Source: Arcobacter roscoffensis
GTDB taxonomy: Bacteria; Campylobacterota; Campylobacteria; Campylobacterales; Arcobacteraceae
Direction of reading: 5' to 3'
NCBI RefSeq assembly: GCF_024267655.1
Contig: NZ_CP100595.1
Location: 2,418,001 to 2,482,000 of the forward strand
DNA length: 64,000 nt
Shown piece after piece: positions 40,321 through 51,067 of this stretch. The notes under the pieces are model-generated. The model did not search any database. It was not told the DNA's origin and worked only from the letters and a program-made list of their open reading frames with translations. The stretch's first letter is position 1; every line of letters starts with the position of its first letter. A program made the position numbers and the translations under genes.

Positions 40321-40350
40321 CAAAACTAAAAGTTTAAACTTTTAGTTTTG
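40321..40350. terminator. bidirectional terminator between fldA and fur
   Basis: A fully symmetric 30-base palindrome (arms CAAAACTAAAAGTTT and complement). It overlaps the last codons of fur. Confidence 0.85.
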
Positions 40351-40785
40351 AGTACAATCTTCGCAAGTTCCGTAAAGTTGCATAGAGTGACTTGTAATTT
40401 TAAATTTATTCTTTTTAGCTATTCTGTCTTGTCTTTTCTCTATTTCATCATCTAAAAACTCTACGATCTTACCACATGAAGTACAAATAAGATGATCATG
40501 ATGAGATTTTGCATTACTCTCATATTTTTTTCCATCCGTACCAAAATTAATAGATACAATTAAGTCTACTTCTTCTAAAAAACTTAGTGCTCTATAAACT
40601 GTAGCTATTCCAATATTTGTATCTGGGTATTGTTTTTTAATTTCATTGTAAACTTCTTCAGCTGTCAAATGATCTTCAGCATTAATTAAAATACTTAAAA
40701 CAATTTCTCTTTGTTCTGTGTATTTTAAACCTTTTTGTTTAACAATTTTTTTAAGTTCTTCTATTATCTCTTCGTTATCTACCAT
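40342..40785 (-). CDS. fur: ferric uptake regulator
   Basis: The 147-residue Fur has a winged helix (LTAEEVYNEI...NIGIATVYRALSFLEEV), the SHHDHLICTSCGKIVEF metal site and a final CEDC. It represses iron genes when Fe2+ is bound. Many Fur-like boxes in 36.9-50.6 kb could be its sites. A second paralogue is encoded at 49931-50383. No perfect Fur box is seen before this gene. Confidence 0.95.
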   Translation of the reverse strand: MVDNEEIIEELKKIVKQKGLKYTEQREIVLSILINAEDHLTAEEVYNEIKKQYPDTNIGIATVYRALSFLEEVDLIVSINFGTDGKKYESNAKSHHDHLICTSCGKIVEFLDDEIEKRQDRIAKKNKFKITSHSMQLYGTCEDCTQN

Positions 40786-40850: not shown

Positions 40851-41102
40851 CTAAATATTATCGTTTAATATAACTTCTTCTTTTAGTTCTTTTTTAGCAA
40901 GTTTTTTCTTTTTTTTGTTTTCAGGCTGATAAAGCATATGATGCCAAAGTGCAAAACCACAAAAAGCAGCCCCTGCAATAACATGAGTTTTTTTAGCTAC
41001 TTTGTTTTTCATAAACATTGAAGTTACAACTGTTGCACCTAAAGTTGCAGTCATTCCTATTTTTGCAACTTCTTTTTTTACCTCTAAATCAAGCTTTTGC
41101 AT
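40851..41102 (-). CDS. small membrane protein of the ferrosome-like region
   Basis: The chosen start is ATG at 41102 (an extended TTG start at 41132 is also open), which has AAGGA nine bases before it. The 83 residues hold two hydrophobic Gly/Ala-rich segments (about 15-32 and 39-56, the second ending ALWHH) and a tail of consecutive Lys. It lies downstream of another tiny membrane ORF and behind a near-perfect Fur box, so its product probably acts in iron handling, perhaps at the same membrane as the adjacent ATPase cluster. Confidence 0.65.
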   Translation of the reverse strand: MQKLDLEVKKEVAKIGMTATLGATVVTSMFMKNKVAKKTHVIAGAAFCGFALWHHMLYQPENKKKKKLAKKELKEEVILNDNI

Positions 41103-41211
41103 TCCTTTTTTTCCTTCTTGTTCTTCTGTCAATAGTTTTTTTTGTTCCCTTTAAAGTCTCATAAGTTAGTGCTGCTGTTAAAATAGTAGCAAGTGGAAGT
41201 ATAAATGGCAT
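41089..41211 (-). CDS. 40-residue membrane peptide
   Basis: ATG at 41211 opens MPFILPLATILTAALTYETL followed by a basic tail (KGTKKTIDRRTRRKKRNAKA). That is one helix with a strongly positive end. The stop overlaps the following gene by 14 bases. AAAGGAT is just upstream and a Fur box stands 12 bases before the start. Its shape matches the other N-terminal-helix proteins of this cluster. Confidence 0.55.
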   Translation of the reverse strand: MPFILPLATILTAALTYETLKGTKKTIDRRTRRKKRNAKA

Positions 41212-41222
41212 TTTAATCCTTT

Positions 41223-41237
41223 TGATAATAATTATCA
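41223..41237. promoter_or_regulatory. perfect Fur-box palindrome
   Basis: TGATAATAATTATCA is a 7-1-7 perfect palindrome. It lies in front of the two small membrane genes, which are transcribed leftward from 41211. Confidence 0.8.
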
Positions 41238-41267
41238 TAATAATAACTATTTTATCTTTAAAGTAAA

Positions 41268-41284
41268 CTGATAACTATTATCAG
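41268..41284. promoter_or_regulatory. second palindrome, Fur-like
   Basis: CTGATAACTATTATCAG is a 7-3-7 perfect palindrome just past the P-type ATPase stop. It could be a second Fur site for the small genes or part of a terminator. Confidence 0.5.
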
Positions 41285-41292
41285 GATTAAAA

Positions 41293-43407
41293 CTATTTAT
41301 TTAACTTTACGCCTCTTATTGAATTTAAAAGTAGTCCAATTGTCGTTCCATTATGTAAAAAGGCTGTCACAATAGGAGAGAATGCTCCAAAAGTAGCACC
41401 TGCTAAAATAGCTGAATTAATACCAACTGTTGCATTAAAATTTGTGTTTATCAACTTCATTGTTTTATGTGCTAACTCTTTAGCTTCAACAACAGCTGCA
41501 ATATCATCTTTTAACAAGCTAACATCAGCAGTTGCCTTAGCAATATCGGCACCTTTACTCATAGAAATTCCAACATGAGCTGAAATTAGTGCAGGTGCAT
41601 CATTAATTCCATCACCTACAAAGGCTACTTTATTACCCTCTTCCATCATCTTTTTTACAATTGAAGCTTTATCACTTGGTAGCAATTCAGAATATACCTC
41701 ATCAATACCTAACTCTTTAGCAACACTTTGTGCTTTTTTATCAACATCACCTGTTAGCATTACAAGTTTTTTTACACCAAATTCTCTTAACTTTTCTAAA
41801 GACTCTTTTGTATTATGTCTAATTTGATCAACTAAAGAAATTGTTCCTAAAAGCTCATTATTATATGCAATATAAAGTAAGGTTTTACCTTCATCAAGCT
41901 TTTTATCAATCTTTTCTTGATGAGCTGAAAAATCTATTTTTTCATCATCTTCTAAAAAATGTCTACTTCCAATAATTACAGCTTTACCATTTACTTCTGT
42001 TTTTACACCATGAGCTACAATAAACTCAACTTCTTCATGATGCATATGAACAAAGCCTCTTTTCTTTGCAGCTTTAACAACAGCTTCTGCAACTGGATGA
42101 AAATAATGTTCTTCCGTACTAGCAGAAAGATTTAAAACCTCTTCTTCAGTCCAGTTTTCATTAAAAGATTGTACATCAACAACTTCTAAATCACCTTGAG
42201 TTAAAGTTCCAGTTTTATCAAAGATAAAAGTATCAGCACTACTTAAAGCCTCGATAGATTTTGCACCTTTTATCATAATTCCTTCATGACCTGCTTTTGA
42301 AATAGTAGATTTAAAAGCGACTGGTGTTGCTAATTTTAAAGCACAAGAATAATCAGCTTGTAAAACAGATGCCACTCTTTCAAAATCTTTGCTCATCACA
42401 TAAGAAACTCCAGCAAGTCCTAGTGTAACAGGTACTAATTTATCTGCTAACTTAGTTGCTTTTAGCTGAACTAATGATTTCTCATTTAATGAGTTTTCTA
42501 TATAGTGTTTTATTCTTTGTGTTGCTGTATTAGCACCAACTTGCTCAGCCCAGATTTTTAACCTACCCTCTTCTAAAACAGTCCCAGATATAACTCTGTC
42601 ACCTCTTTGTTTTTTTACAGGTTCAGCCTCTCCTGTCATAGAAACTTGGTTTACACTCGCACTACCATTTACAATATGTCCATCAACAGGAACAGTACTT
42701 CCTGCTGAAACAACTACAATATCACCAACTTCAATAGTATCTGTATCAACTAAAGTTTCAACTAGTTTTCCATCAACTTCTTTTTCAAGCCAAGCTTCTT
42801 TTACATTTGGTTTTGCAAGCTCTTTTAGTAAATCATCACTTCGATGAACCGTTGTTTCTTCTATATACTCTCCAAGAGCTAACATTGCATTTGTAGAATT
42901 AGCAGCAAGATAATCTTTTCTAAATAAAGAAATACCCACAGCTGCACTTTCTAAAACTCTTGAAGTAAGTCCTTCTTTAAAAAGTTCTTGTGTTCCTTCT
43001 ATTAAAAGAGGTGTCGCTGCACTACTTGAAATAGCTGCATTTATAAAATCATTTTTAATAAATCTTTCACTAACTAATGCACTAGAAGCATAAATCAAAG
43101 GTTTTAGGCTTGGTTCTTCATCACTTACACAAGACACACATACAGCTGCTTCTTCATCTAATGAACTTAATAATTCATCTGCATTTACACAAGCTAATTT
43201 ATCTTCTATTACTTCACATACATCTTCATCAAAAGTAAAAATTATACTTTTAGCTTTTTTATTTATTCTAACAGAAGTTACATGCTCTATTTTTTCAAGA
43301 TAGTTTTTAAGGATATTTTCATCAAGATACTCATCACTTAAAAGTTCAAACTTATATCTTGCTCTAAAAGATGTACCGTGAACTTTTCTAAAACTATTTA
43401 TACTCAT
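41293..43407 (-). CDS. fezB: P1B-type heavy-metal ATPase of a ferrosome-like cluster
   Basis: The 704-residue pump has an N-terminal HMA-like domain without CxxC (residues 1-75, with SFRARYKF), an actuator segment (SMTGEAEPV) and the phosphorylation site DKTGTLTQGD near residue 395. GDGINDAPALISAHVGISM lies near 598. The metal-path motif, normally CPC, reads YSCALKLATP near residue 352. A missing CPC and a ferritin-like neighbour fit the P1B-6 ATPase FezB that loads iron into ferrosomes. The symbol is given on that inference, and Mn, Fe or another metal are all possible. It is the last large gene of a leftward cluster behind Fur-like boxes. Confidence 0.75.
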   Translation of the reverse strand: MSINSFRKVHGTSFRARYKFELLSDEYLDENILKNYLEKIEHVTSVRINKKAKSIIFTFDEDVCEVIEDKLACVNADELLSSLDEEAAVCVSCVSDEEPSLKPLIYASSALVSERFIKNDFINAAISSSAATPLLIEGTQELFKEGLTSRVLESAAVGISLFRKDYLAANSTNAMLALGEYIEETTVHRSDDLLKELAKPNVKEAWLEKEVDGKLVETLVDTDTIEVGDIVVVSAGSTVPVDGHIVNGSASVNQVSMTGEAEPVKKQRGDRVISGTVLEEGRLKIWAEQVGANTATQRIKHYIENSLNEKSLVQLKATKLADKLVPVTLGLAGVSYVMSKDFERVASVLQADYSCALKLATPVAFKSTISKAGHEGIMIKGAKSIEALSSADTFIFDKTGTLTQGDLEVVDVQSFNENWTEEEVLNLSASTEEHYFHPVAEAVVKAAKKRGFVHMHHEEVEFIVAHGVKTEVNGKAVIIGSRHFLEDDEKIDFSAHQEKIDKKLDEGKTLLYIAYNNELLGTISLVDQIRHNTKESLEKLREFGVKKLVMLTGDVDKKAQSVAKELGIDEVYSELLPSDKASIVKKMMEEGNKVAFVGDGINDAPALISAHVGISMSKGADIAKATADVSLLKDDIAAVVEAKELAHKTMKLINTNFNATVGINSAILAGATFGAFSPIVTAFLHNGTTIGLLLNSIRGVKLNK

Positions 43408-43415
43408 AATTAACC

Positions 43416-43820
43416 TTAATAGTTTTTAGCTTCCATTTGAGCTTTTGCATCTTCCATTCTCTCTTTTAACTCTTCCATTCCTGCTTGAACTAGTTCACTA
43501 CCCTTTGAAAAACCATTGAAAATAGCTTTTTGTGTAGTTTTGTTTGTTAAAAGAAAAGTCACACCTGCGCCAATTAATGCACCCTTTACAAAATCACCAT
43601 TAAAAAATGAATCATTTACATTATTTTGATTAGCTATTGGATTTTGTGCAGAATTATTTGTATCTTGATTTATATATGGATTAACTTGTTGAGTATTATT
43701 CATATTTTGATTTTGATTAATATATGGGTTTGATAAAAAAGCATTTTGAGTAGCTTGATTATTTGTCATATTTGCTTGTGGATTTATTTGTGTTTGTTCT
43801 TGTTGATTTATATTATTCAT
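43416..43820 (-). CDS. Asn/Gln-rich membrane protein of the ferrosome-like cluster
   Basis: Residues 1-72 are nearly all Asn, Gln, Pro, Thr and Tyr, with repeated NPYINQ units. Then comes one Gly-rich helix (GDFVKGALIGAGVTFLL, about 74-91) and an amphipathic Glu/Lys/Met tail (about 100-134). Low-complexity N/Q tails of this kind can drive clustering or phase separation. It starts eight bases into the upstream gene's end and is followed by the ATPase after eight bases. No homologue is recalled. Confidence 0.7.
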   Translation of the reverse strand: MNNINQQEQTQINPQANMTNNQATQNAFLSNPYINQNQNMNNTQQVNPYINQDTNNSAQNPIANQNNVNDSFFNGDFVKGALIGAGVTFLLTNKTTQKAIFNGFSKGSELVQAGMEELKERMEDAKAQMEAKNY

Positions 43821-44178
43821 ATTCTACTACCTCATTATTTTCAGTTGAACAAGAAACTGCTTGTACTTGCTCTTCACTATTAAACTTCTTATCAATCATT
43901 TCAACCGCATAAACCCCAGCAGCACCAACTGCTAAAGAAGCTAAGGCTTTGAACATACCATTTTTTTCATTTTTATATGAACTTGCAGCTACAACTGAAG
44001 CTGTTGCTATTGTTCCTTGAGTTGTTCTTTTTACCACATCATATGTAGCTTTTCTGATATTTGTTTCACCTTTTTTTATTCTCATAGCATTGATAGTACC
44101 TGCTGCAAGTAAAGATACAGCAGCTCCACTTACTAAATGATGTGTCATTACTTTTGGTTCTTCAAAATTACTTTTCAT
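43813..44178 (-). CDS. membrane protein with two Gly/Ala-rich helices
   Basis: The start chosen is ATG at 44178 (GAGGG is five bases upstream); a start at 44223 would overlap the previous gene by 56 bases. The 121 residues contain VSGAAVSLLAAGTINAM and ALASLAVGAAGVYAVEMI as candidate helices and a charged end. It overlaps both neighbours, so it is part of the same translationally coupled operon. The function is unknown. The form is similar to the small protein at 40851-41102. Confidence 0.65.
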   Translation of the reverse strand: MKSNFEEPKVMTHHLVSGAAVSLLAAGTINAMRIKKGETNIRKATYDVVKRTTQGTIATASVVAASSYKNEKNGMFKALASLAVGAAGVYAVEMIDKKFNSEEQVQAVSCSTENNEVVEYE

Positions 44179-44428
44179 TATTTCCCTCTTCTTTCTTCTC
44201 ACAACTGTCTTTACAATCTTCATCTTGAGTTTTGTTTTTATCTTTTTTATCTTTTATGCAATCAACCGTAGCTTCAACATTTTGTTTTACATTGTCTTTT
44301 ACATCACTTACAAGATCTTTTGACTTATCAAAAAATTCATCTGTTTTTTCTTTTATTTTTTTACTATTATTATATGCAACTACTGCCCCTGCTCCAACTG
44401 CTACACCTAATAAAAATGGAAGTGCCAT
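44168..44428 (-). CDS. YtxH-like protein, N-terminal helix plus charged coil
   Basis: This 86-residue protein has a hydrophobic start (MALPFLLGVAVGAGAVVAY), then an amphipathic, Lys/Asp/Glu-rich region of about 65 residues with three Cys. The layout recalls YtxH-type membrane anchors. It starts 11 bases past the stop of the ferritin-like gene, with AAAGGAG before the ATG. Confidence 0.7.
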   Translation of the reverse strand: MALPFLLGVAVGAGAVVAYNNSKKIKEKTDEFFDKSKDLVSDVKDNVKQNVEATVDCIKDKKDKNKTQDEDCKDSCEKKEEGNNEK

Positions 44429-44439
44429 GATATACTCCT

Positions 44440-45144
44440 TTAATTTTCAGTATTATCTTCTTTATTCATCATGCTATTAAGTGCCATACCGCCTAAAGCA
44501 CCAACTGCAAGACCACTCATCATTGACATGTTCATATTAGATAACATAGACATAATTTTATTTTGATCTATGTTTCCATTCATAGCATCATCAAGTAATT
44601 CTTGATATTGAGCCATATTATCCATCATATTTGCCCCATTTTGATTTGTACTGGGCATTTGATTATTTATTTGAGGATTTACTTGATTATAAAATGAAGC
44701 AACACAAGCTCTAAAAGCTGGTAAGTGATTGTTAAATGAAGCTGCTTGAATTCTATAAAAAAGATCTCTTACATCAGGTTCATTTACATACATAAGCAAG
44801 TCATCATATAAAGCTATATTATCAATCTCAGCAGCAACTGCGACTTCACAACACTCTTGTAATGTGTTTGGTAATTGTACTTTTACTTGCTCAACTATAG
44901 GAGCTTCTACGCCATACTTTTGCATTAAAAGTATAATCTCATTATAGTGATTTATCTCAGAGTTTATGATATTTGAAAATGGCAGTACATTTCCAAACTT
45001 TGCAATAACATTGCTATAAGTATTATAAGCTTCAAACTCGTCATTTGCAGCAATTCTTAAAGCCTGAGATAATACTGGTTGGGGGTCATTAGGATCAACT
45101 CTTTGAGCATCCAACAAGTTCTGATCTACATTTTTTTGTTGCAT
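44440..45144 (-). CDS. ferritin-like protein with C-terminal hydrophobic segment
   Basis: Residues 25-150 form a ferritin-like four-helix domain of the DUF2202 type. Candidate di-metal ligands are E36 and E38 in NDEFEAY, E63 and H66 in SEINHYNEI, E106 in AAEIDNIALY, and H140 in FNNHLPAF, where a ligand Glu expected before His seems replaced by Asn. After a Asn/Met-rich linker, residues 205-226 (SMMSGLAVGALGGMALNSMM) make a hydrophobic helix. This may anchor an iron-oxidising or iron-storing domain to a membrane. It lies one base from the HMA-like gene. Confidence 0.8.
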   Translation of the reverse strand: MQQKNVDQNLLDAQRVDPNDPQPVLSQALRIAANDEFEAYNTYSNVIAKFGNVLPFSNIINSEINHYNEIILLMQKYGVEAPIVEQVKVQLPNTLQECCEVAVAAEIDNIALYDDLLMYVNEPDVRDLFYRIQAASFNNHLPAFRACVASFYNQVNPQINNQMPSTNQNGANMMDNMAQYQELLDDAMNGNIDQNKIMSMLSNMNMSMMSGLAVGALGGMALNSMMNKEDNTEN

Positions 45145-45459
45145 TTACACTACCTCCTTTGCTAGGGTGTTTATTAGTTTTGTTACTTCATCTAAATTTT
45201 TATGTGCTATTAAATCTTCCCAAAGTCTTGGTTCAAAAACAGCTGGCTCATAAGTAATTGTAACTGAAGCAATAACTTTTTTAATCTTTATTTCTTTAAT
45301 ACCATTTATTTTTTTTGGTAAATTCTCAATATCCTCTAGTGTGATATTTCCACCTTCATTTTTTATTTTAGGATTTACTCTTACTCTTAGTCTTCCAGGA
45401 GTGTGAGCAATAATGCTAAAATAATCTGCTATTTTTATAATATCTTCTGTACTTATCAA
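45145..45459 (-). CDS. HMA-like small protein, first gene of the ferrosome-like cluster
   Basis: The 104-residue protein has a beta-alpha fold start, IIAHTPGRLRVRVNPKI, which is typical of HMA-like domains in P-type ATPases but has no CxxC. The Arg-rich strand resembles the N-terminus of the ATPase encoded 1.7 kb downstream. A Fur-like box stands about 100 bases upstream and AAAGGA precedes the ATG. In ferrosome clusters a small HMA-like protein commonly accompanies the ATPase, which is the basis for the role proposed here. Confidence 0.72.
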   Translation of the reverse strand: MISTEDIIKIADYFSIIAHTPGRLRVRVNPKIKNEGGNITLEDIENLPKKINGIKEIKIKKVIASVTITYEPAVFEPRLWEDLIAHKNLDEVTKLINTLAKEVV

Positions 45460-45558: not shown

Positions 45559-45577
45559 TTAATAATAATTATCAATA
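45559..45577. promoter_or_regulatory. Fur box upstream of the ferrosome-like operon
   Basis: TTAATAATAATTATCAATA contains the ATAATTATCA core. It lies about 100 bases before the leftward HMA-like gene and 110 before feoA. Confidence 0.65.
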
Positions 45578-45650: not shown

Positions 45651-45670
45651 TATTATAATAATCATTATTA
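45651..45670. promoter_or_regulatory. Fur box before feoA
   Basis: TATTATAATAATCATTATTA stands 17 bases before the feoA start, where bound Fur would block transcription. Confidence 0.7.
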
Positions 45671-45686
45671 AAGACAAGGAATAAAA

Positions 45687-45914
45687 ATGACCCTCGATAA
45701 GTTAAATATCAATGAGTCTGCTATAGTAAAATCTATAAATTGTGAAGCTTCACTAAAAAATAGATTTAACTCTTTTGGAATAGTAAGAGGTTCTAAAATA
45801 TATGTAGAAGAAGTAACTTTAACAAAAAGTACTATTGAAATAAAAATAAACAATACAAAAGTTGCTCTACGATTTACAGAAGCTGCAAAAATTGAGATTG
45901 AAAAATGCAAATAA
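45687..45914 (+). CDS. feoA: ferrous iron transport protein A
   Basis: The 75-residue SH3-like protein contains LKNRFNSFGIVRGSKIYVEEV and KINNTKVALRFTEAAKIEI, the FeoA pattern. It assists the FeoB pump. AAGGA precedes the ATG. Its stop overlaps the feoB start by ten bases. Confidence 0.93.
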   Translation: MTLDKLNINESAIVKSINCEASLKNRFNSFGIVRGSKIYVEEVTLTKSTIEIKINNTKVALRFTEAAKIEIEKCK

Positions 45915-48031
45915 AAGATTTTAAAGAAGAAAAAGTAATAAAAGTAGCTTTAGTTGGTCAGCCAAATGTTGGGAAATCAATGCTTATCAACTCAATCTCA
46001 AATGCTAGACTTAAAGTAGGAAACTTCTCAGGGGTTACTGTAGCAAAAGAAGAAGTTGTATTTAAATATAAAAACTACAAAATAGAAATTACAGACCTTC
46101 CAGGGGCTTACTCTTTAAATGACTATACCTTAGAAGAAAAAGTTACTAAAGAGTATTTAGAAAACTCACCTTATGACATAATTTTAAATGTACTTGATTC
46201 AACAAATTTAGAAAGAAACTTATATCTAACATCAGAATTACTTGCACTTGACAAAAAAATGATTATTGCTTTAAATATGATTGATGAAGCAAAAAAAGAG
46301 AATATTCAAGTAGATGAAAATCAATTAAGTAAAATTCTAGGTAAACCTTGTATTAAAACAAGTGCAGCACAAAACCTAGGAATAAAAGAAGTTATAGATA
46401 ATATAGTAAAAAAATATGACTCTTCAAAACTTCCTACAAAACTTACTTTCTCTGATGTAATGGAAGAAGAAATTTCAAATTTAGTAAAAGTAATGGAAGA
46501 AAATGCCTTTAGAACTTCTCAAACATATAGGCAACTTGCAATTAAACTTTTAAAAGAAGATAAACAAACATATAAATATTTTCATGATGAGCCAATTTGG
46601 GTTAAACTTCAACCTGTACTTGCCCACGCTTTTGAACATTTATTTATTCATTATGATACAAAAAATATGGATGATATATTTAGTGATGAAAGATTTGCTT
46701 TTGCAAAAGGGGCTGTAACTGAAACAGTTAAACAAGAAAAAAGCATAGCAAAATCAACAACTGAAAAAATAGACTCTTTGCTTATTCACAAGTTTTTAGG
46801 TTTACCAATTTTCTTATTTTTAATGTGGGGATTATTTCAACTTACTTTTGAAATAGGAAATATTCCTATGGATATGATTGATGCGTTTTTTGCTTCGCTA
46901 ATTGATGGTACAAAAGAAGCATTAGGAGATAATCAATTAAGCTCAGTAATTGCTGATGGAGCACTAGCAGGAGTTGGTGCAGTTATTCTTTTTTTACCAA
47001 ATATTGTAATACTATTTTTTGGTATAGCTCTGCTTGAAACTACTGGATATATGAGTAGAGTTGCATTTTTACTTGATGGTTTTTTTCATAAATTTGGACT
47101 TCATGGAAAATCATTTATTCCTTTAGTTACAGGTTTTGGATGTTCAGTTCCTGCTTATATGGCTGCAAGAACACTTAAAAATGAAAAAGATAGACTTTTA
47201 ACTTTATTTATTATAGGGTTTATGTCATGTGGAGCTAGACTTCCTATTTATGTACTTTTTGTGGGTGCTTTTTTTAATGAAGGTAATGCAGGGAATATCT
47301 TATTTATAATATATATAAGTGGAGCAATTTTAGGATTAATTGCAGCTAAGGCTTTAAAAATTATTGTATTTAAAAGTGAAGATGAACCTTTTGTAATGGA
47401 AATGCCAAAATACAGAATGCCATCATTTAAACTAATCTGGCATACTGTTTCAAACCAAGCTTTAATGTACTTAAAAAAAGCAGGTACTTATATTTTAGCA
47501 GCTTCAATTCTTATTTGGTTTGCATCAAACTATCCTAAGTACCCTTTAATTGAAGAACAATACGCTAGTAAAATAGACCTAGCAATTTCAGAAGATAAAA
47601 AAAGTGAACTATTAAATGAGTTAGCTATGTATAAACTAGAAAACTCATATTTAGGTATTATTGGAAAAGCTAGTGAGCCTTTATTTGCTCCACTTGGTTT
47701 TGATTGGAAAATGACTATTGCCTTAGAAACAGGACTTGCTGCAAAAGAAATTGTTGTTTCAACTCTTGGTATTTTATATGGCTTAGGGGAAGATCATGAT
47801 GAGAGTTCAAAAGGTTTAATTGAGAAAATCAAAGATAATATTCCTTTTGCCTCAGCTATTTCATTTATCGTGTTTGTAATGATTTATTTACCTTGTTTAG
47901 CAGCTTCTATGGTATTTGCAAAAGAAGCAGGAGGATGGAAGTATTTAGCTTATTTATTTGTCTTTACAACTACAACAGCTTGGATTTTATCTTTTATTGC
48001 TTATAACATCACAAAAATAGTAGTAGGATAA
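45905..48031 (+). CDS. feoB: ferrous iron transporter FeoB
   Basis: The protein is 708 residues. The N-terminal G domain has GQPNVGKSMLINSIS, DLPGAYSLNDYTLEE and NMIDEA. The membrane part carries two Gate regions, including FIPLVTGFGCSVPAYMAARTL and a later TGLAAKEIVVSTLGILYG. It is the GTP-driven Fe2+ importer of the inner membrane. Together with the divergently transcribed cluster on the left, it would supply iron for storage. Confidence 0.97.
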   Translation: MQIKDFKEEKVIKVALVGQPNVGKSMLINSISNARLKVGNFSGVTVAKEEVVFKYKNYKIEITDLPGAYSLNDYTLEEKVTKEYLENSPYDIILNVLDSTNLERNLYLTSELLALDKKMIIALNMIDEAKKENIQVDENQLSKILGKPCIKTSAAQNLGIKEVIDNIVKKYDSSKLPTKLTFSDVMEEEISNLVKVMEENAFRTSQTYRQLAIKLLKEDKQTYKYFHDEPIWVKLQPVLAHAFEHLFIHYDTKNMDDIFSDERFAFAKGAVTETVKQEKSIAKSTTEKIDSLLIHKFLGLPIFLFLMWGLFQLTFEIGNIPMDMIDAFFASLIDGTKEALGDNQLSSVIADGALAGVGAVILFLPNIVILFFGIALLETTGYMSRVAFLLDGFFHKFGLHGKSFIPLVTGFGCSVPAYMAARTLKNEKDRLLTLFIIGFMSCGARLPIYVLFVGAFFNEGNAGNILFIIYISGAILGLIAAKALKIIVFKSEDEPFVMEMPKYRMPSFKLIWHTVSNQALMYLKKAGTYILAASILIWFASNYPKYPLIEEQYASKIDLAISEDKKSELLNELAMYKLENSYLGIIGKASEPLFAPLGFDWKMTIALETGLAAKEIVVSTLGILYGLGEDHDESSKGLIEKIKDNIPFASAISFIVFVMIYLPCLAASMVFAKEAGGWKYLAYLFVFTTTTAWILSFIAYNITKIVVG

Positions 48032-49910: not shown

Positions 49911-49927
49911 TTGATAATGATTATCAA
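49911..49927. promoter_or_regulatory. perfect Fur palindrome before the GGDEF gene
   Basis: TTGATAATGATTATCAA has two eight-base arms around one G. It is the best match to the Fur consensus in the window and sits between the GGDEF start and the stop of the second fur gene. Confidence 0.85.
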
Positions 49928-49930
49928 TAG

Positions 49931-50383
49931 TTATTTATTTTGACAATCTTCACAAATTCCATATATTGTCATAATATGATCTTTTAATTTAAAATTATGC
50001 TTTTTTGCTACTAACTCCTGCTGATCTTCTATCAAATCATCAGTAAATTCAATAATTTTACCACAGTTTGTACATATCATATGATCATGATGGATTGATA
50101 TATTCAACTCATATCTTTTTGTGCCATCGCCAATATCTAAAGATTTTACTATATTCATTGACTCAAAAAACTTTACAGTTCTATAAACAGTTGCGATTCC
50201 TAAATCAATTTTATATAAACTTTTTGCAATATTCACTATTTGTTCAGCACTCAAATGTTCATCACTAAAATAGAGTATTTTTAATATATAATCTTTTTGA
50301 ATTGAATTTTTATATCCTGATTTAGAAACAGATTTTTTAAAGTTTGACAAAAATGACTCAAAACTAATCTCATATCTTTTCAC
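49931..50383 (-). CDS. Fur-family regulator, second paralogue
   Basis: This 150-residue protein has DNA-binding helix LSAEQIVNIAKSLYKIDLGIATVYRTVKFFE, the metal site HHDHMICTNCGKIIEF and a C-terminal CEDC. It is as complete as the other Fur at 40342-40785, so the cell has at least two. The start is GTG at 50383, which overlaps the stop of a small membrane gene by one base (TAGTG), so the two are coupled. It could be Fur-like or PerR-like. Confidence 0.92.
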   Translation of the reverse strand: MKRYEISFESFLSNFKKSVSKSGYKNSIQKDYILKILYFSDEHLSAEQIVNIAKSLYKIDLGIATVYRTVKFFESMNIVKSLDIGDGTKRYELNISIHHDHMICTNCGKIIEFTDDLIEDQQELVAKKHNFKLKDHIMTIYGICEDCQNK

Positions 50384-50644: not shown

Positions 50645-51067
50645 ATGCTAAATGTAGGAATTAATATCTTAGGACAAGTTGCAAAAACAGCTCTATTTAG
50701 TGCTGTATCTACAAAGGTTATTGATAGTATTATAACTTCAAAAATTAATAAAAAAAATGATCATAACAAATGGATGAGAGAAACTAAACTTAACTTATTT
50801 AGTAAAATCTCAAATGAAATTTTATCTTTTGATATTAAAAATTCATCATCACAAGATGAAAAAAGATTAAAAGAAATATGTAATAAAACAGTTTTACTTT
50901 TAGATGAAAAGAAACTTATTATTGAGATACAAGAGTATTTAAAAGATTTAGCTCAAACTCAAAGAGCCTTAGTTTTTGATGAAAAAAATGAAAGTTTAAT
51001 AAATAGTTTCAATAAAAAATCTATGAATTTAGTGATTAGCTTAAACAATAATTTGAAAAGAAGTTAA
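50645..51067 (+). CDS. iron-regulated protein of unknown function
   Basis: The 140-residue protein has one weakly hydrophobic Ala-rich segment (GQVAKTALFSAVSTKVIDSII, about 10-30) and otherwise long Lys/Glu-rich helices. AAAGGA precedes the ATG and a Fur-like box lies upstream. It is similar in style to the small helical proteins of the 40.9-45.5 kb cluster and may belong to the same function, but no family is recognised. Confidence 0.65.
   Translation: MLNVGINILGQVAKTALFSAVSTKVIDSIITSKINKKNDHNKWMRETKLNLFSKISNEILSFDIKNSSSQDEKRLKEICNKTVLLLDEKKLIIEIQEYLKDLAQTQRALVFDEKNESLINSFNKKSMNLVISLNNNLKRS

Follow-up and report, generated by a model that had tools for sequence, protein, structure and literature searches.

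What kind of metal-handling system is encoded by a tight run of eight minus-strand genes in Arcobacter roscoffensis? The genes, running from 45459 to 40851, are A, B, C, D, E, a P1B-type ATPase, G and H. They lie in a window of 64,000 nucleotides, i.e. the whole stretch of DNA that was analyzed (contig NZ_CP100595.1, positions 2,418,001 to 2,482,000). An initial annotation had proposed a ferrosome-like (fez) locus. Ferrosomes are membrane-wrapped iron stores inside bacteria and have so far been demonstrated in only a few of them. At the level of sequence the proposal is supported by the clade of the pump, by the small proteins shared with other clusters and by the co-conservation of the genes. 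The cluster can be read as a Campylobacterota branch of the fez gene clusters with a probability of roughly 0.75, and we infer that ferrosomes may be formed in this organism. Relative to the open literature and the databases searched, the fez-type cluster is a known kind, while the ferritin-like domain carried on the tail of protein B appears to be new.

The P1B ATPase

The pump matches the heavy-metal P1B domain, with generic family models naming a heavy-metal or cadmium-type pump, and its catalytic motifs are intact. In a tree of 134 P1B ATPase sequences, built with a quick method and no bootstrap, it falls inside a clade of 62 rows with a Shimodaira-Hasegawa-like approximate likelihood ratio test (SH-aLRT) value of 99. 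This clade holds pumps from Peptostreptococcaceae taken as Clostridioides, Lachnospiraceae, methanogens, Desulfovibrionaceae and alpha- and gammaproteobacteria. All CPC-type (copper-type) pumps fall outside it, and no grouping of the window pump with copper or zinc exporters is observed. The motif D[YF][SA]C occurs in 61 of the 62 rows. The group sharing this motif is imperfectly monophyletic, with two IDYSCG rows just outside the clade and one VDYSCS row inside. The pattern used for an N-terminal CxxC matched none of the 62 rows, and 55 of them have HN-x-[ST] near the C-terminus. A copper or zinc exporter is rejected on the tree position together with the motifs. The data support a FezB-type pump, distinct from Cu and Zn pumps, in a clade that lacks published FezB proteins under their own names. 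The clade membership is computed, and the pump would belong to the class known in the literature as P1B-6.

A separate CPC-type ATPase with the motif MxCPCxT adjoins fez-type clusters in Desulfovibrionaceae and in two Arcobacteraceae (L030:3705, L032:5812, L167:11139, L168:3465, L170:2692, L172:9344 and L177:2382, where L numbers denote loci). It forms a clade of its own in the tree and is possibly a second metal pump of the system.

Organization of the cluster

The features of the locus are as follows (strand in parentheses).

40342..40785 (-): Fur-family regulator (domain match), directly downstream of the cluster
40851..41102 (-): gene H, 83 amino acids (aa); two hydrophobic helices, invariant His-X13-His; FezC/DUF4405-like candidate b-type cytochrome
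41089..41211 (-): gene G, 40 aa; one hydrophobic segment, basic tail
41223..41237: perfect Fur-like palindrome between ATPase and G, ahead of G and H
41269..41283: Fur-like box with one mismatch, between ATPase and G, ahead of G and H
41293..43407 (-): FezB-type P1B ATPase, 704 aa; heavy-metal-associated domain 2 (HMA_2) N-terminus, DYSCALKLATP, DKTGT, GDGINDAP, LHNGTT
43416..43820 (-): gene E, 134 aa; Asn/Gln-rich head, conserved hydrophobic helix, C-terminal EELKERxEDAKAE segment (YtxH-like)
43813..44178 (-): gene D, 121 aa; rich in Gly/Ala, two hydrophobic segments
44168..44428 (-): gene C, 86 aa; N-terminal hydrophobic GxxxG helix, then a charged C-terminal part
44440..45144 (-): gene B, 234 aa; DUF2202 ferritin-like four-helix bundle (~20-157), hydrophobic GxxxG tail (~168-229)
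45145..45459 (-): gene A, 104 aa; HMA_2-type, HTPGRLRVRV motif, without CxxC, TTG start
45560..45574: Fur-like box with one mismatch, upstream of gene A
45656..45670: weaker Fur-like box with two mismatches, in the divergent gap between A and feoA, nearer feoA
45687..48031 (+): feoA-feoB, for uptake of ferrous iron, divergent from the cluster

The tight leftward packing described in the initial annotation is confirmed by all eight genes and their spacing. A and B abut (0 base pairs, bp), B and C are 11 bp apart, C and D overlap by 11 bp, D and E by 8 bp, E and the ATPase gene are 8 bp apart and G and H overlap by 14 bp. Six of the seven junctions are thus overlapping or at most 12 bp long, as had been claimed for most of them; the exception is the gap of 81 bp between the ATPase gene and G, which contains two Fur-like boxes. 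A purine-rich stretch precedes each of the eight genes, and the start of H is placed at ATG 41102 in preference to TTG 41132. As for the gene labels proposed earlier, those of an HMA-like A, a ferritin-like B and a P1B ATPase hold. The separate YtxH-like protein does not: only E gives a YtxH match, and a weak one, and gene C gave no Pfam match of note in the domain search.

Comparison with known fez clusters

Homologues of A, D, E and H surround a FezB-type pump in the Desulfovibrionaceae loci L167, L168 and L170, and in part in L172 and L177. These clusters also hold a protein with the tail of B and FeoA-like proteins, and L168 has a Fur-family gene. The pump of the window shares 45% identity over 692 columns with one of the Desulfovibrionaceae pumps. 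The Desulfovibrionaceae clusters differ from the window by a low-complexity head at the position of B, by the additional CPC-type pump and, in some, by a second FezB-type pump. Homologues of A, D and E are present in Vibrio, Hahella and Azospirillum clusters as well. In Azospirillum six genes are found in the order HMA_2, HMA-like, two without a label, YtxH and ATPase. This resembles the window in the pump (48.6% identity), in the HMA_2, D-like and YtxH-like E genes and in the similar order; unlike the window, no ferritin-like B and no H were seen there. Six fez genes are also what ferrosomes are made from in R. palustris (PMC12016538).

In C. difficile 630 the fezAB pair corresponds to CD630_05910-05920 (PMC11651100), and Fur control of fezAB has been reported (PMC12574912). 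The Peptostreptococcaceae genomes taken as Clostridioides encode a pair consisting of a DUF6110 membrane protein of 131 aa and the ATPase (L159-L161). C. difficile fezAB, as judged from the presumed Clostridioides pair, resembles the window in a pump of the same clade (39% identity over 564 aa to the pump of that pair), in the small membrane protein beside it and in the reported Fur control. It has two core genes rather than eight, however, with DUF6110 as the candidate FezA, and neither a ferritin-like protein nor a FezC-like H was seen at the presumed Clostridioides locus.

Of the small proteins, A has homologues at or near the start of the clusters in relatives and Desulfovibrionaceae. E has a variable low-complexity head, while its membrane helix and C-terminal EELKERxEDAKAE are common to 14 sequences. 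This conserved part adjoins the same pump type in Desulfovibrionaceae and in alpha- and gammaproteobacteria. By its sequence, E is a standard component of such clusters, and a lineage-specific extra is ruled out as it is common to others.

In H, His37 and His51 (alignment numbering, first row) are invariant in 14 members, spaced X13 in the second hydrophobic helix. The homologues from Desulfovibrionaceae match at E 1e-17 to 1e-20, and the weak Pfam match seen most often is DUF4405, in 13 of the 14 members. The FezC of D. magneticus is a DUF4405-related heme protein, and that of D. indicum bound heme b (PMC11334425). H shares with these DUF4405/FezC cytochromes the His-X13-His of the second helix; it differs in having only 83 aa and two helices, and its heme binding is a prediction. 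Because its DUF4405 match lies under the Pfam cut-off, the protein is named FezC-like rather than FezC and is a candidate b-type cytochrome.

Distribution in the Campylobacterota

The order A-B-C-D-E-ATPase-(G)-H recurs in 16 relatives with few exceptions. L035 and L034, from other families, retain most of it, while L036 has no B and its pump is without the N-terminal domain. Among 397 Campylobacterota genomes with a completeness of 90% or more, 135 have the pump (E≤1e-120), spread over 28 of the 68 genera. With a profile of B built from 17 rows, 140 genomes gave a match, and 127 of them have the pump. At E≤1e-15, B is present in 123 of the 135 genomes with the pump and in none of the 262 without (Fisher p ~2e-89, which overstates independence as the genomes are related). 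In all 64 pairs with coordinates compared, B shares the strand of the pump and stands 0.65-1.8 kb upstream of it. Co-conservation of the cluster genes is therefore strong, both in gene order and in co-occurrence. Of the Campylobacterota genomes sampled, about a third would be predicted to make ferrosomes, apparently also in host-associated families with small genomes. The eight genes offer a compact system for testing this.

The cluster is also present on plasmid CP134847.1 (L042), near TonB-dependent receptors and a ChaN-family lipoprotein, and the pump on plasmid CP129951.1; both plasmids are from chicken-meat Arcobacter. An A-B-C-D-E-ATPase-H-H cluster beside FeoAB was seen on a contig assigned to a gammaproteobacterial metagenome-assembled genome (L047), likely by horizontal transfer or else by a binning error. 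Because of these two plasmids and the gammaproteobacterial contig, the cluster probably moves horizontally. In the open-access literature nothing was found on DUF2202 or ferrosomes in Campylobacterota, although the primary ferrosome papers may already list such clusters or the ferritin-like gene. The main text of an A. butzleri transcriptome paper makes no mention of a P-type ATPase, DUF2202 or YtxH.

The ferritin-like protein B

B matches DUF2202 with E 1.5e-7 and 31.8 bits (cut-off 22). An AlphaFold2 model, built on only three sequences, contains confident helices at 24-50, 56-76, 95-117 and 123-154 (block values of the predicted local distance difference test mostly 87-96) and a poor tail. 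In structure comparison, residues ~20-157 superpose on bacterioferritins and Dps-like proteins with Z 16-17 and a root-mean-square deviation of ~2.1-3.2 Å over ~130-140 residues. B shares the four-helix fold with bacterioferritin and DUF2202 proteins, together with the conserved E, ExxH, E and H; the candidate diiron ligands are E36, E63, H66, E106 and H140. It differs from them in the fused membrane tail, in its place in a fez-type operon and in helix 4, which has no canonical ExxH and hence no second ExxH carboxylate. The ligands are, moreover, lost in one family. All five are kept in all sampled members of families f5, f16 and f19, in all of f1 but one and in some of f13. In f10 all sampled B proteins have lost E63 and H140 (e.g. 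E63 to R/K/Q, H140 to Y/F/N), and H66 is replaced nearly always. Because the metal ligands are lost in most sampled f10 proteins, B is not necessarily an enzyme everywhere, which weakens the view of B as a universal diiron enzyme. The initial annotation had seen a cluster extended with a ferritin-like enzyme and a low-complexity protein; its ferritin-like domain stands, but E is no extra and an enzymatic role need not be general. A plain ferritin is rejected as well: another gene of the genome, at 1080217, is of the ferritin family, and where Campylobacterota lack the pump, matches to B are weak and leave the tail uncovered. The f10 loci L188-L198 and L034, with B in its usual position and the key metal ligands gone, form a natural series of ligand-poor ferritin-like proteins.

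The tail of B (~175-224) matches the C-terminal part of low-complexity proteins in a comparable position in Desulfovibrionaceae, Cereibacter, Vibrio and Hahella clusters (hhalign 93%, E 2.5e-7; single-sequence matches E 2e-6 to 6e-3). Because of this match, the Campylobacterota appear to carry a ferritin-like domain in place of the low-complexity head found elsewhere. No ferritin-like B was seen among the sampled clusters of other ferrosome types, which do not amount to a full survey. As judged from these sequences, the ferritin-like head is a distinctive, lineage-specific feature of the Campylobacterota clusters, set apart from a conserved machinery of pump, HMA_2 protein, D, E, FezC-like H and B tail.

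Fur-like boxes

The pattern TGATAATNATTATCA with at most two mismatches has 12 sites in the window against 2.2 expected, a number reached in none of 100 shuffles. Fur-like palindromes had been noted before the first gene and before the last two, and this is borne out by the boxes at 45560 and 45656 and at 41223 and 41269. Across these two regions in 13 loci (the window and twelve relatives), 20 Fur-like sites were counted against 0.32 expected, all of them in nine loci. The boxes 3' of the ATPase gene recur among the Arcobacteraceae relatives. The operon is probably under iron regulation.

Proposed mechanism

Upon iron limitation, Fur would leave the two promoters and the membrane proteins would be made. 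C, D, E and G, which are small membrane proteins with GxxxG, may together with the tail of B form an intracytoplasmic vesicle, into whose lumen the P1B ATPase would then move cytosolic Fe(II). The HMA_2 domains of the ATPase N-terminus and of protein A would presumably act from the cytosol. H, as a FezC-like b-type cytochrome, could pass electrons across the vesicle membrane, whereby stored iron would be re-reduced and released. Because the membrane tail of B is C-terminal, its ferritin-like domain should face the cytosol, where it may bind or oxidize Fe(II) on the vesicle surface while the iron is loaded or before that. A more speculative extension, which we consider rather doubtful, is a tail-anchored ferritin-like coat: a diiron layer or patch of B on the cytosolic vesicle face that captures or oxidizes Fe(II) and is coupled to the FezB-type pump. 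If true, the ferritin and ferrosome strategies would be merged in one organelle. The cluster as such provides a concrete link between the two known kinds of bacterial iron store, protein cages and membrane organelles.

Alternative explanations

Several observations weigh against the assignment to the fez clusters. L032-L035, four of the more distant loci, have no Fur-like boxes in either scanned region, and the boxes are consensus matches that do not give the direction of control. L159-L161 are presumed to be Clostridioides loci, with a DUF6110-ATPase pair (at ~0.71 Mb in one genome) that is compatible with fezAB. The likeness to D. magneticus is drawn via other Desulfovibrionaceae clusters, and that to R. 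palustris fez by way of Azospirillum, not via their own Fez proteins. The match of A to HMA_2 (E 2.2e-6) is under the gathering score, as is that of H to DUF4405 (E 0.019 for the window protein, 0.0027 for the best of 14).

The same genes could instead serve Fe(II) export or detoxification at the plasma membrane, with no organelle and with the small proteins as accessory subunits or stabilizers of the pump. Such a system would be functionally like the P1B-4 exporters. Whether towards the periplasm or into a vesicle, a P1B pump moves Fe(II) by the same chemistry, and the HEG-type motifs of other pumps occupy a C-terminal position comparable to HNGTT. The pump nevertheless belongs to the FezB-type clade and not with the HEG/SPC pumps, and its association with many small GxxxG proteins, FezC-like H and FeoAB uptake genes is conserved. 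A Fur-repressed exporter would, moreover, be expressed at iron scarcity, which makes little sense. This explanation is unlikely. Export of copper, zinc or cadmium is barely credible: the generic family models do give the pump a heavy-metal or cadmium-type name, but it has neither the CPC motif nor the CxxC found in the N-terminal HMA of copper pumps, its clade is a separate one, and Fur-like boxes and FeoAB accompany it. A non-catalytic B that serves the vesicle surface as a scaffold, structural or iron-sensing, is a serious contender, if short of even odds. It is a variant of the fez assignment and compatible with it. The gene keeps its place in f10 despite the replaced helix-2 Glu, helix-4 His and, nearly always, H66, and the window protein itself is without the canonical ExxH on helix 4; against this stands the retention of all five ligands in f5, f16, f19 and nearly all f1 proteins.

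Neighboring genes

Genes matching feoA-feoB adjoin the cluster in L021 and L022 as well, and Fur-family genes adjoin FeoB or directly precede A in several relatives. Further neighbors in the window are a flavodoxin and a second Fur-family regulator at 49931-50383 (-), with Fur-like boxes of its own at 49912, 50518 and 50574. A conserved ~140-aa protein without an assigned function (MLNVGINILGQVAKTALFSAVSTKVIDS...) is encoded at 50645-51067 (+), 3' of two Fur-like boxes, and similar-looking ~140-aa proteins are found near the cluster in L021, L022, L023 and L024.

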